Below, piece by piece: positions 51,212-54,716 of a stretch of DNA of 64,000 bases (its first letter is position 1; each line of letters opens with the position of its first letter). Below the pieces are notes generated by a model, which saw only the letters and a list, made by a program, of their open reading frames with translations, ran no database searches and was not told the DNA's origin. Location of the stretch: positions 4,821,394 through 4,885,393 of the forward strand of contig NZ_JAIHOO010000001.1 of assembly GCF_019733395.1 (NCBI RefSeq), given 5' to 3'. Position numbers and translations under genes: made by a program. Source of the DNA: Lysobacter sp. BMK333-48F3 (GTDB taxonomy: Bacteria; Pseudomonadota; Gammaproteobacteria; Xanthomonadales; Xanthomonadaceae).

Positions 51212-51727
51212 ATGACCCTGCTGATGGCCAACGGAGATTTGGCGGCGGCCCGCTCGGGCGATCGGGCGGCGCTCGAACGCGTGCTGACGCATTCGCGCCA
51301 GGACCTGCGGCGCTACGCCGAATTCCACTGCGTCATCAACGACGTCGAGGACGCGGTCCAGGAAAGCCTGATCACCGTCTCGCGCAAGCTGCGCGACCTG
51401 CGCGTGCTGGAATGCTTCGTGTCGTGGACCTTCCGCATCGTCAAGCGCGAATGCAACCGGCTCAAGCGCGCCCGGCGCCTGCTCGCCGGCCAGCCGATCG
51501 GCGAGGAGATCATGCCGGTGACGACCCCGGAACCGGTCGAGTGGCGCCACGACGTCGCCGCCGCGCTGGAATCCCTGCCCGCGCACTACCGCGAGATCAT
51601 CCTGTTGCGCGACCTGGAGGGGCTGACCGTCGAAGAGCTCGGCGCGCGCCTGGACATGACCCGCGAAGCGGTCAAGTCGCGCCTGCACCGCGCCCGCGTG
51701 CTCGCCCGCGAGTACCTGCAGACTTGA
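51212..51727 (+). CDS. ECF-type RNA polymerase sigma factor
   Basis: 171 residues from ATG 51212, chosen because GGAGGAGG is close upstream. Region 2 is DLRRYAEFHCVINDVEDAVQ...FVSWTFRIVKRECNRLKRARR. Region 4 is LESLPAHYREIILLRDLEGLTVEELGARLDMTREAVKSRLHRAR. No anti-sigma gene lies beside it. It is 173 bp upstream of the EGxCG-repeat precursor gene, on the same strand. In other bacteria ECF sigma factors control this kind of DUF692/DUF2063 operon in response to copper or oxidative stress, so self-contained control of the RiPP operon is a reasonable inference. Confidence 0.88.
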   Translation: MTLLMANGDLAAARSGDRAALERVLTHSRQDLRRYAEFHCVINDVEDAVQESLITVSRKLRDLRVLECFVSWTFRIVKRECNRLKRARRLLAGQPIGEEIMPVTTPEPVEWRHDVAAALESLPAHYREIILLRDLEGLTVEELGARLDMTREAVKSRLHRARVLAREYLQT

Positions 51728-51900
51728 CCCCGCGCCGCCCGCCGCATGGCACCCGGCCGCGCCGGATTGCGTATTCCCTTTGGTTCGACCCACGCTCTGT
51801 ACCCGCAAACCCGAATTCAGCGCAAACCACGGACCCGACCTGTCGGACCGTCATCCCAACCGGCGGATAACCGCCGACATCGCCACGTAGGAGTCATTCC

Positions 51901-52317
51901 ATGTCCAAGCAAATCAAGAAGCCCGTCGCCCTCGCCCTCGGCGCCACCCTGATCGGCGGCCTGAGCCTGTCGGCTTCCGCGTTCGCGATGACCGATCTGT
52001 CGCAGGGCTACCTGCTGGGCGCGCAGTCGGCGCAGACCGCCGACAAGGCCGTCGACGCCAAGGCCACCGACGCCAAGAAGGCCGAAGGCACCTGCGGCGC
52101 AGACAAGAAGGCGAAGGAAGGCAGCTGCGGCGCCGACAAGAAGGCCGCCGAGGGCAAGTGCGGCGAAGGCAAGTGCGGCGCCGACAAGAAGAAGCACGCC
52201 GAAGGCAAGTGCGGCGGCGACAAGAAGGACGCGGCCAAGCCCGCCGACGCCAAGCCGGCGGCCAAGAAGGCCGGCGAGGGCAAGTGCGGCGAAGGCAAGT
52301 GCGGCGGTTCGGTCTAA
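51901..52317 (+). CDS. hvfA: HvfA-type EGxCG-repeat RiPP precursor (metallophore/bufferin-like)
   Basis: 138 residues behind TAGGAG. Residues 1-29 are a cleavable signal peptide ([16 protein letters not shown]; the TDLSQGY phrase after the signal is typical of the family). From residue 62 the sequence is low-complexity with seven EGxCG motifs, Cys at 65, 76, 87, 92, 104, 129 and 134, separated by Lys/Asp/Ala spacers. Two are doubled as [10 protein letters not shown] (84-93 and 126-135). In Haemophilus HvfA, EGKCG Cys residues are converted by HvfBC into oxazolone/thioamide pairs that bind copper. Here the next genes encode the same enzyme pair, so each of the seven Cys is a candidate modification site. 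Confidence 0.9.
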
Positions 52318-52330
52318 TCGCCGCCACGCG

Positions 52331-53194
52331 ATGACGATGGACGGCACGCGTCCCCTGAAACCGGATGCCGTCGGCCTCGGCCTGCGGCGGGCCCTGCTGG
52401 GCCCGCTGCAGTCCGCCGCGGACGGGGATTTCGATTTCCTCGAATGCGCGCCGGAGAACTGGATCGGCGTCGGCGGCCGCTACGGCGAGGCCCTGCGCGA
52501 ACTCGGCGCGCGCCACCCGCTGGTCTGCCACGGCCTGTCGCTGTCGCTGGGCGGCACCGAAGCGCTGGACGAGACCTTCCTGGTCCGGGTCCGGCGTTTC
52601 CTCGACGAGCACCGGGTCGCCTGCTACAGCGAGCACCTGAGCTACTGCAGCGACGACGGCCACCTCTACGATCTGCTGCCGATTCCGTTCACCGAAGAGG
52701 CGGTGCACCACGTCGCCGCGCGCATCCGCCGCACCCAGGACCTGGTCGGGCGCCGGATCGCGATCGAGAACGCCTCCTACTACGCCGCGCCGCACCAGGA
52801 GATGAGCGAAATCGAGTTCACCCTGGCGGTGCTGGCCGAGGCCGACTGCGAGCTGTTGCTCGACGTCAACAACGTCTACGTCAATTCGATCAACCACCGC
52901 TACGACGCGCGCGCCTTCCTGGCCGCGATGCCGGCCGAGCGGATCGCCTACCTGCACGTCGCCGGCCACTACGACGAGGCCGAAGACCTCAAGGTCGATA
53001 CCCACGGCGCGCCGGTCAAGGATGCGGTGTGGTCGCTGCTCGGCGAGGCCTACCGGCTGTTCGGCCAGCGCCCGACCCTGCTCGAACGCGACTTCAACTT
53101 CCCGCCCTACGAAGAGCTGGTCGGCGAACTCGGCCAGGTGCGCCGGATCCTGGCCCAGGCCGCGCCTGCCGCCGCCCGCCGCGCGCGCGGCTGA
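52331..53194 (+). CDS. hvfB: DUF692 multinuclear non-heme iron oxidase (MNIO), HvfB/BufB type
   Basis: 287 residues, starting 13 bp after hvfA. It has a TIM-barrel with the family metal and substrate blocks: [11 protein letters not shown] (His67), YSEHLSY (Glu101/His102), IENASYY (Glu146), [18 protein letters not shown] (Asp178, Asn180/181), [10 protein letters not shown] (His209, His213), VDTHGAPV (Asp223, His225) and [10 protein letters not shown] (Glu252). MNIOs use an iron cluster and O2 to oxidise Cys residues of a precursor. Partner specificity comes from the DUF2063 protein. It is intact, with no missing ligand that I can see. Confidence 0.93.
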
Positions 53195-53200
53195 GCCCCC

Positions 53201-53977
53201 ATGAACGACGCTCCCTCGCGCCTGCGCGCGCAGCAGTTCGAACTGACCCGGCACCTGCGCGACCCGCAGGCCAGCCCGGCCCCGGCCGGCCTGGAAGACC
53301 GCCGCCTGGGCATCTACCGCGACCTGTTGTTCAACAACATCGAAGGCCTGCTGGCCGGCAATTTCCCGGTCATCCGCCGCCTGCTCGGCGACGAGCGCTG
53401 GCCGCGCATGGTGCGCGACTTCTATCGCGACCACCGCTGCCGCACGCCACTGTTCCCCGAGATCGCGCGCGAGTTCATGCGCTACCTGGAGCAGCGCGAG
53501 AACGCGGACGACCCGCCGTTCCTGTCCGAGCTGGCGCATTACGAATGGGTCGAACTGGCCCTGCAGCTCAGCGAAGCGCAGGCGCCCCGCGACGACGCCG
53601 GCATCGCCGACGCCGACCTGCTCGAACACCCGCCGCAACTGTCGCCGCTGGCCTGGCCGCTGGCCTATGCCTGGCCGGTACACCGGATCGGCCCGGATTT
53701 CGAGCCCGACCGCGCCCCCGCCGCGCCGAGCCTGCTGCTGTTGCGCCGCGAGGCCGACGGCGAGGTCCGCTTCTCCGAACTCAGCCCGCTGGCCTACCGC
53801 CTGATCGAACGCATCGGCGAGGCGCCGCAGTTGAGCGCGCGCGAACAACTCGCCGCGCTCGCCGCCGAGGCCGGCAGCGACGATCCGGCCGGGTTCCTCG
53901 AACTCGGCCACGGCCTGCTGCGGCAGATGCGCGCCAACGCGGTGATTTTTTTCGCCGCGGCGAACCCTTCGGCCTGA
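53201..53977 (+). CDS. hvfC: DUF2063 RiPP maturation partner, HvfC/BufC type
   Basis: 258 residues, ATG 53201, 6 bp after hvfB. The N-terminal DUF2063 domain has [45 protein letters not shown] and [27 protein letters not shown]. The C-terminal half carries a second domain with aromatic strands ([34 protein letters not shown]). In HvfBC and BufBC this protein binds the precursor and the MNIO and is needed for activity. It is cytoplasmic. The small hairpin GCGCCGG-CATTT-CCGGCGC at 53999-54017 follows its stop. Confidence 0.9.
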
Positions 53978-54035
53978 GCGGCGCCTCTTATCGGTAAAGC
54001 GCCGGCATTTCCGGCGCGACCGTGGAGTGCCCGCA

Positions 54036-54716
54036 ATGCCGTCGTTCTGCCTGATCAAGTCCTGCCTGTCCTTGCGCGACCGCCTCGCCGGCGTCGGCGC
54101 CTGGCTGGCGCCCGTAGGCCTGCGCCTGATCCTGGCCTGGGAATTCTTCGAATCCGGACGCGAGAAACTGCGCGGCGAGAACTGGTTCGGCGAAATCATG
54201 GCCAACTTCCCGTTCCCGTTCGACCGCGTGCCGGCGTCATTGAGCTGGTCGCTGGCGACGTGGTTCGAACTGCTCGGCGCGGCCGCACTGCTGCTCGGCC
54301 TGGCCACCCGCTTCGCCGCCGCTTCGCTGTTCGCGCTGACCGTGGTCGCCACCGCCGCTGTGCACTGGCCGCAGGACTGGATGGGCCTGGCCCAGTTGGC
54401 GCAAGGCTATGCGATCCGCGACAGCGGCGCCGGCAACTACAAGCTGCCGCTGATCTTCCTGGCCATGCTGTGGCCGCTGATCCTCGGCGGCGCCGGGCGG
54501 CTGAGCCTGGACGCCCGGCTGACGCGCCGCGCGGCGCTGCCGGCGACCGCGCCGCGCGCCGATCTGTTCGGCTGGGGCCTGGTCCTGGCGCCGTTCGGCC
54601 TGCTCGTGGCGATGCTGCTGCCGGCGCCGGGCCTGGCCCTGGCCGGACTCGGCGCGGCGGCCCTGCTCGTCGGCGCCCGGCGCGCGCCGGGCTGCACGCT
54701 CGCGCCGGCGAACTGA
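54036..54716 (+). CDS. DoxX-family membrane protein of the RiPP operon
   Basis: 226 residues from ATG 54036 behind GTGGAG. About five hydrophobic segments. The DoxX blocks [24 protein letters not shown] and [23 protein letters not shown] are present. DoxX proteins often close DUF692/DUF2063 operons (HvfX-like), where a copper-linked membrane role has been proposed. An additional hydrophobic C-terminal region (about 175-210) ends in a short tail with one Cys. Its place as the last gene, 58 bp after hvfC, supports membership of this operon; the exact task is unknown. Confidence 0.85.

Follow-up and report, generated by a model that had tools for sequence, protein, structure and literature searches.

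A captophorin-type operon of Lysobacter linked to an ECF sigma factor with a candidate promoter of its own and no recognisable adjacent anti-sigma gene

A stretch of 64,000 nucleotides from Lysobacter sp. BMK333-48F3 (contig NZ_JAIHOO010000001.1, positions 4,821,394 to 4,885,393; hereafter the window) carries on its forward strand a sigma factor gene followed by the genes of a ribosomally synthesised and post-translationally modified peptide (RiPP). Reading frames and sequence bear out both coordinates and gene order: an extracytoplasmic function (ECF) sigma factor of 171 aa with H39, C40, C81 and H125 conserved in its clade (51212..51727), a captophorin/HvfA-type precursor of 138 aa with seven EGxCG motifs (51901..52317), a multinuclear non-heme iron-dependent oxidative enzyme (MNIO, DUF692) of the HvfB family (52331..53194), a DUF2063 partner protein of the HvfC or PME type 1 kind (53201..53977) and a DoxX-family membrane protein, HvfX (54036..54716). 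For the latter, the ATG at 54036, with its GGAG Shine-Dalgarno sequence, is a likelier start than the GTG at 54027. A predicted promoter, GCGAACC-N18-CTCTT, lies upstream of the sigma gene on the same strand (P1, 51124..51153), where the sigma factor itself would be its reader, and a second copy overlaps the end of the DUF2063 gene just before DoxX (P2, 53960..53989, forward strand). We consider it likely that this captophorin operon is driven by a dedicated ECF sigma factor without the need of an adjacent anti-sigma factor, in a self-amplifying circuit. The gene set, its families and order, the sigma clade, the recurrence of the promoter-like element across loci and the lack of a recognisable neighbouring anti-sigma gene were computed here; co-transcription, reading of the element by the sigma factor and the activating signal we only infer.

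An earlier sequence-only reading of the window had proposed an HvfABC-like MNIO RiPP operon in which a DUF692 MNIO, a DUF2063 partner and a DoxX protein follow the precursor, and the family scores support this. The three proteins exceed the NCBIfam cut-offs of HvfB (432 against 360 bits), HvfC (304 against 142 bits) and HvfX (138 against 80), respectively, and the precursor exceeds that of the KCGExKCG_twice domain (50.1 against 19.5) while remaining below the NCBIfam HvfA equivalog cut-off (53.3 against 95). Pfam concurs for the MNIO, DUF2063, DoxX and sigma region 4, with sigma region 2 slightly below its cut-off. Among solved structures compared by sequence, the MNIO scores best with 3bww and the DUF2063 protein with 3dee. 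Residues RR19-20 and RDF253-255 of the MNIO, compared without an alignment to FonB, resemble Arg15, Arg16, Asp249 and Phe250, which are among the specificity and base residues of that enzyme (PMC12668002). Two other classes were rejected: Bufferin 1, since the precursor has no DUF2282 match in Pfam up to an E value of 0.1 and the BufB model gives 265 bits against a cut-off of 310, and methanobactin (MbnABC), for which the MbnB model gives 47.9 bits against a cut-off of 325. The locus has the sequence features expected of HvfABC systems of the EGKCG type, namely a repeat precursor with a signal peptide (recognised by eye), an adjoining HvfB-type MNIO and a DUF2063 partner, and the gene set is not a chance arrangement because the same gene order recurs across genomes of the family. 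On the strength of these sequence comparisons, we firmly assign it, in a Lysobacter-like bacterium, to the captophorin operons of the HvfA/oxazolin type. A second MNIO locus is found in the same genome outside the window (L098:3677-6643, in G000:C1; L, G and C number loci, genomes and contigs), where DoxX comes first, followed by an EGKCG precursor that ends in a pair of EF-hands, the MNIO, the DUF2063 protein and a putative membrane-protein frame; L098 showed no sigma match and no strict promoter element.

The precursor contains seven cysteines, each within one EGxCG motif (Cys 65, 76, 87, 92, 104, 129 and 134), comprising five EGKCG, one EGTCG and one EGSCG and including two doubled units, which verifies the positions and motifs first read for a 138-residue exported peptide. 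A Sec-type signal peptide, assigned by eye, covers residues 1-29 and ends in SAFA (51901..51987, forward strand); right behind it lies an LxxGY motif (51997..52011, forward strand), a possible recognition site for the MNIO/DUF2063 pair, and [LM]xxGY precedes the repeats in 35/35 precursors compared. These belong to 35 loci with the same sigma factor, made up of the window, 28 loci from family genomes and 6 named loci (L099-L103, L105), with near-copies among them (L065/L066/L100, L072/L073, L077/L079) and precursor starts picked by script. The number of motifs, the doubling and the EGSCG variant had been put forward as distinctive, and this is ruled out by the 35 loci, in which precursors carry 4-11 EGxCG motifs (a few QGxCG included) and 1-5 doubled units, doubling occurs throughout and a Ser variant is present in 18/35, as well as by fontiphorin with its seven modified sites (PMC12668002); a precursor with 58 cysteines is also in print (PMC12452194). 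The EGTCG variant was seen, among the 35 precursors, only in that of the window and that of its nearest relative (L063). FonBC accepted replacement of the Lys by Ala, Arg or Thr and, of two shortened substrates, modified only the one with two repeats (PMC12668002), and because of the latter result the lone motifs here (Cys 65, 76 and 104) may be less well processed. EF-hand motifs occur in 16/35 precursors (L067-L073, L080, L084-L088, L101, L102 and L105). By these comparisons the peptide is unremarkable among its kind. In the nearest relative, a second EGxCG precursor gene stands behind a promoter element on another contig (L239, G116:C182), with an assembly gap inside it.

The linked sigma factor had also been called distinctive. 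ECF control of MNIO clusters as such is already known, with anti-sigma factors, from Haemophilus RpoE2-HrsE (PMC7907618), Caulobacter SigF-NrsF (PMC3511200) and Sinorhizobium RpoE7-EcfR7 (PMC6180224); the part of the claim that stands is the linked sigma factor without an anti-sigma gene, and what looks new here, judged by sequence, is a sigma factor that forms a clade of its own, has invariant cysteines and comes with a candidate promoter that is conserved. The sigma factor was matched in 34/119 family genomes (E <= 1e-15) and an MNIO in 93/119. In 30 of the 34 it lies beside a captophorin MNIO, 29 times within a few kb on the same contig (including G023, where the sigma frame is interrupted) and once in G116, where the contig ends within the MNIO (L063); in G068 a different MNIO is found ~2 kb from the sigma gene. 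The gene upstream of sigma varies (phoU in many loci, others identified by eye), so the sigma and peptide genes stay together across neighbourhoods. The gap from the sigma stop to the precursor ranges from 46 to 215 nt in the 35 loci, with 173 nt in the window and 46-57 nt in 7/35. In a quick tree of 80 sigma factors, long branches being flagged, the 37 MNIO-type sequences (including two without a linked MNIO, L083 and L104) formed one clade with a Shimodaira-Hasegawa-like approximate likelihood ratio test (SH-aLRT) support of 99; a sister set, mostly betaproteobacterial, lies close to this clade, and five NrsF-linked sigma factors formed a separate group on a long branch far from it. Two members of the wider clade, L104:2233-5016 and L129:4450-7304, are encoded beside a fusion of a VTT domain and a pyridine nucleotide-disulfide oxidoreductase (domains checked in L104, N-terminal likeness in L129).

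The lack of a recognisable anti-sigma gene nearby, read from the window alone, was upheld by wider searches. No small frame with the zinc-binding anti-sigma (ZAS) signature HxxxCxxC was found in the 35 loci, other anti-sigma types not having been screened by profile, and NrsF gave no match in the window's genome (E 0.001). Membership of ECF16 (SigF-NrsF) was thus rejected, as the genome has no NrsF and the sigma factor falls outside the NrsF-linked clade. A literature search of titles and abstract openings in open-licence papers found, among the matches listed, no description of this sigma factor or promoter. Going by its sequence relationships, the sigma factor appears to be a regulator not described before, which has a promoter sequence of its own and lacks a recognisable inhibitor gene beside it.

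The candidate promoter has the general form GCGMAYC-N18-CTCTT and was first seen by eye upstream of sigma as GCG[AC]A[CT]C followed, after 18 nt, by CTCTT. A slightly relaxed form precedes sigma in 27/35 loci, whereas 200 Markov shuffles gave 0.3 on average and 2 at most; these shuffle counts are post hoc, because those very 35 related loci had served to define the pattern by eye. When spacers of 12-24 nt were scanned, 23/35 loci fitted at 18 nt and one at 20 nt, the remaining lengths and the antisense strand giving 0. From 36 fetched loci, the promoter count dropped L083 (no linked MNIO), L092 and L093 (sister type), L094 (stop-interrupted sigma), L095 and L098 (no sigma), and L096 and L097 (distant ECF). 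Sister sigma factors and genome counts are less biased tests of the element than the shuffles. Across 31 sigma-positive genomes there were 95 element hits against 41 for a control pattern, compared with 62 against 64 across 31 sigma-negative genomes (Fisher p 0.001). The former are 31 of the 34 (without G000, G023 and G094, G000 being searched separately), of which 29 have an MNIO-clade sigma and two, G068 and G095, one of the sister type; the latter are 31 of 85, from the head of the list. Once 21 hits at sigma loci and partners are subtracted, 74 against 41 remain (p 0.02, among the matches listed). In sigma-negative genomes the element was found within 1.5 kb upstream of an MNIO in 0/12 loci; the same stricter pattern was found in 8/17 sigma-positive MNIO loci, some of which have variants and some of whose stretches may end before the promoter. 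The window's genome contains three strict hits, two of which are P1 and P2, and a looser scan of it (49 hits against 27 for the control) gave no clear further targets. A counterpart of P2 exists in 6/16 loci with a linked DoxX gene (the window, L066, L089, L090, L100 and L101), and also in L240 of G116.

The sister and neighbouring sigma factors, which played no part in defining the pattern, have the element ~290-334 nt upstream of the sigma match in 14/18 loci. The four misses are L104 (which the tree places in the MNIO clade), L110 (little upstream sequence), L143 (two element sites elsewhere in the locus) and L093. In 26 sites from 17 of these loci, A/T-rich tracts resembling UP elements lie just upstream, and a leading G is invariant although outside the demands of the search pattern. 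In eight genomes of the sister set, GCGAAYC-N18-CTCTT occurred 20 times and its reversed control 0 times; judged from contig and position, 15/20 hits are at the sigma operon or its divergent partner. Conservation and position could also suit the site of a DNA-binding regulator instead of a sigma promoter, but the two halves are asymmetric, the spacer is nearly fixed at 18 nt, A/T tracts stand upstream in the sister set and the element co-occurs with the sigma clade across different neighbourhoods, and we regard such a site as very improbable.

In the sister loci, one element precedes a gene for a Cys-rich exported peptide of the KCGAKC type, followed by a DUF6969 frame, and a divergent element precedes a gene for either cytochrome c or thioredoxin, behind which come a DsbD-like gene and, at a greater distance, sigma (Pfam domains checked in L108 only). 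Such systems are found at L108:22-2692, L113:1312-4088, L116:1758-4113, L092:5382-6553 and L290. Three of the KCGAKC-type peptides had no Pfam family match and four no NCBIfam match; the sister sigma genes of L092 and L111 adjoin a YgaP-like_TM gene. Among 20 further element sites picked by eye from the hits listed for the window's genome and the family genomes, some in sigma-positive relatives precede genes for cytochrome b561, YceI, Oxidored_molyb (YedY/MsrP-like), DUF417, DoxX and a second EGxCG precursor, and the remainder are intragenic or without a sensible gene; these further regulon targets in relatives are suggestive only.

Other cis elements bear on how the sigma factor is controlled. 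A tandem repeat of 11-nt period, CTGAAT-N5-CTGAAC, lies upstream of P1 (51083..51099, forward strand) and is a possible activator site. CTRAAN-N5-CTRAAN precedes 18/35 sigma genes (Markov shuffles: mean 0.03, maximum 1), starting 31-32 or 40-42 nt before the promoter in the 14 loci with both, distances about one helical turn apart, and has one strict match in the window's genome against 0 for the control. The sigma factor might not be self-sensing and instead be held in trans by an unlinked anti-sigma factor, or be governed at the level of transcription only, by an activator at the tandem CTRAAY repeat; the ECF factors described for this peptide class also have shown or predicted anti-sigma partners (PMC7907618, PMC3511200, PMC6180224, PMC10304878). 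Against this, the ZAS-type frame is missing from the 35 loci even where the upstream genes are unrelated, the genome has no NrsF match, and in the 18 sister and neighbouring loci, which otherwise share the element, a search of 900 nt upstream gave no such repeat. We give this explanation a chance a little short of even. Between the sigma and precursor genes lies a G+C-rich hairpin with a 6-bp stem and a 4-nt loop (51861..51876, forward strand), with counterparts in 26/34 loci (100 Markov shuffles: mean 6.6, maximum 12; L090 was left out as its precursor start was miscalled by script), possibly a stability or processing element. Another G+C-rich hairpin, seen by eye, lies between P2 and the DoxX gene (53999..54017, forward strand).

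If the sigma factor does sense a signal itself, its conserved residues are where a sensor would be sought. C40 and C81 are invariant in 74/74 clade members (37 MNIO-type, 13 sister and 24 other). H39 is present in 50/50 MNIO-type and sister sequences, 5/24 others and 0/25 distant ECF factors, the last picked by hand, and H125 in 49/50, 7/24 and 0/25, respectively. An H-C...C signature specific to MNIO-linked sigma factors was ruled out, since the sister sigma factors share it, and coupling of H39 with H125 found no support on the tree, which offered two independent pairs only. The AlphaFold2 model is poor (mean predicted local distance difference test score, pLDDT, 70; predicted template modelling score, pTM, 0.41), and its fold matches say just 'ECF sigma'. 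CorE, CorE2 and OrbS are ECF factors that sense metal themselves through cysteines in C-terminal extensions (PMC8999054, PMC9023288); an extension of this kind was looked for and not found, as the protein ends with region 4 and has no Cys-rich tail. The invariant Cys pair with His39 is, as a hypothesis drawn from conservation, the best candidate sensor. More speculatively, the sigma factor may belong to an undescribed beta- and gammaproteobacterial ECF family of local regulons for Cys-rich exported peptides, without anti-sigma factors, in which H39-C40, C81 and perhaps H125, bridging regions 2 and 4, would sense cytoplasmic copper or thiol oxidation and turn on promoter binding; the peptides would be captophorins in Lysobacter relatives and, elsewhere, the KCGAKC type with DUF6969, cytochrome c, thioredoxin and DsbD-like proteins. 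We hold this broader proposal to be doubtful.

The nature of the product can be approached through its characterised relatives. The modification was first proposed for HvfA, and accordingly in the sequence-only reading, to consist of oxazolone/thioamide groups, the original assignment for oxazolin that still stands in NCBIfam names; a preprint (PMC12668002) has since re-assigned oxazolin to 5-thiooxazole by alkylation-assisted heteronuclear multiple bond correlation (HMBC) spectroscopy and reports the same group in fontiphorin and gonophorin, which makes oxazolone/thioamide groups highly unlikely here. By analogy with these relatives, the product would carry 5-thiooxazoles, be exported and bind copper, probably serving as a chelator of copper in the periplasm. 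Copper is bound by fontiphorin and gonophorin (PMC12668002), bufferins chelate it (PMC12452194) and the Cupriavidus gig cluster is copper-induced (PMC10304878). These same observations speak against the alternative that the main role is in oxidative stress of the envelope (by HOCl, or as oxidation of thiols or methionine), with the binding of copper as a secondary function. That alternative finds support in the HOCl-driven equivalent operon under Haemophilus RpoE2 (PMC7907618), in a Microbulbifer EGKCG cluster without copper response (PMC12538549), in the thioredoxin and DsbD-like genes of a sister sigma locus and in the element before cytochrome b561, YceI, Oxidored_molyb, DUF417 and second EGxCG precursor genes in sigma-positive relatives, although these target candidates come from the 20 sites chosen by eye among the hits listed, several of them intragenic or without a sensible gene. 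It is a serious contender, which we place somewhat below an even chance.

In the circuit we favour, stress would activate the sigma factor, which would read GCGAACC-N18-CTCTT at P1, the promoter of its own gene, and the output would therefore be self-amplifying. The sigma, precursor, MNIO and DUF2063 genes would be transcribed together, with P2 separately boosting DoxX. The MNIO and its DUF2063 partner would then turn up to seven EGxCG cysteines into 5-thiooxazoles (~-4 Da each, ~28 Da in total), and the peptide, exported by Sec, would hold Cu(I) in the periplasm, its predicted role being that of a periplasmic Cu(I)-binding, thiol-stress peptide.

A number of observations weigh against this circuit. 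The sigma match has no linked MNIO in G007, G094 and G095, and the clade member L104 is an orphan sigma in its locus. Besides the post hoc character of the shuffle counts, 8/35 loci lack the promoter pattern, some of them coming close to it with a different spacer length or an altered base; in the window's genome the control pattern likewise scores three hits, so that there only the clustering at the operon counts, and P2 is seen in just the 6/16 DoxX-linked loci named above. An anti-sigma factor encoded elsewhere in the genome is possible. The conserved cysteines may be structural, because part of the distant ECF factors share them (C40 in 11/25, C81 in 8/25; L096 and L097 both have C81 but lack C40). 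The related Microbulbifer EGKCG cluster, finally, is not copper-inducible, so induction by copper is not universal.

MNIO-made copper peptides are a newly recognised and common class of bacterial RiPPs. A dedicated sigma factor, together with its predicted promoter and a few local targets, would make a simple circuit, and the promoter and sigma signature could be used to find similar peptide genes, including those for the Cys-rich peptides without an MNIO found nearby. Should the sigma factor sense copper or oxidants itself, a mode of sensing inside sigma region 2 would join the few ECF factors that work without an anti-sigma factor.

Among known systems, the locus is closest in composition to the captophorins fontiphorin, oxazolin and gonophorin (FonABC, HvfABC and NgoABC), with which it shares an EGKCG repeat precursor, an MNIO and a DUF2063 partner, and with fontiphorin also the number of seven sites; it differs from them (PMC12668002) in its two non-Lys motifs (EGTCG and EGSCG) and in the linked ECF sigma factor without a recognisable anti-sigma gene. 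The Buf_EGKCG/oxazolin family (PMC12452194) likewise has a signal peptide, EGKCG repeats, a RiPP-MNIO-DUF2063-DoxX core and EF-hand fusions among relatives. Its EF-hands are at the C terminus, whereas those of the relatives examined here lie between blocks of EGKCG motifs in the precursors whose sequences were inspected, and the excerpts of that paper mention sigma and NrsF genes in Buf1 clusters but describe no sigma factor of the present type. Caulobacter SigF-NrsF and Sinorhizobium RpoE7-EcfR7 of ECF16 (PMC3511200, PMC6180224) also control MNIO/DUF2063 operons and their own gene, and the target set suggested here resembles the SigF regulon, which includes two MNIO operons, DoxX and YedY (PMC3511200). 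The ECF16 systems differ in their anti-sigma partner, in the SigF promoter GTAACC-N16-CGAA and in their separate sigma clade, and the five NrsF-linked sigma factors have no C40/C81, unlike the sigma factor here. Haemophilus RpoE2-HrsE (PMC7907618) is similar in that an ECF factor is required for HOCl induction of the equivalent operon; its sigma gene, by locus numbers, is not beside the operon, and the factor is held by an anti-sigma of 67 aa. With CorE/CorE2 and OrbS (PMC8999054, PMC9023288) the sigma factor would share the absence of an anti-sigma factor and metal sensing by cysteines, the latter here only a hypothesis; it is their C-terminal extensions that carry the cysteines, with a CXC in the linker of CorE besides, whereas the Cys pair here lies in sigma region 2.

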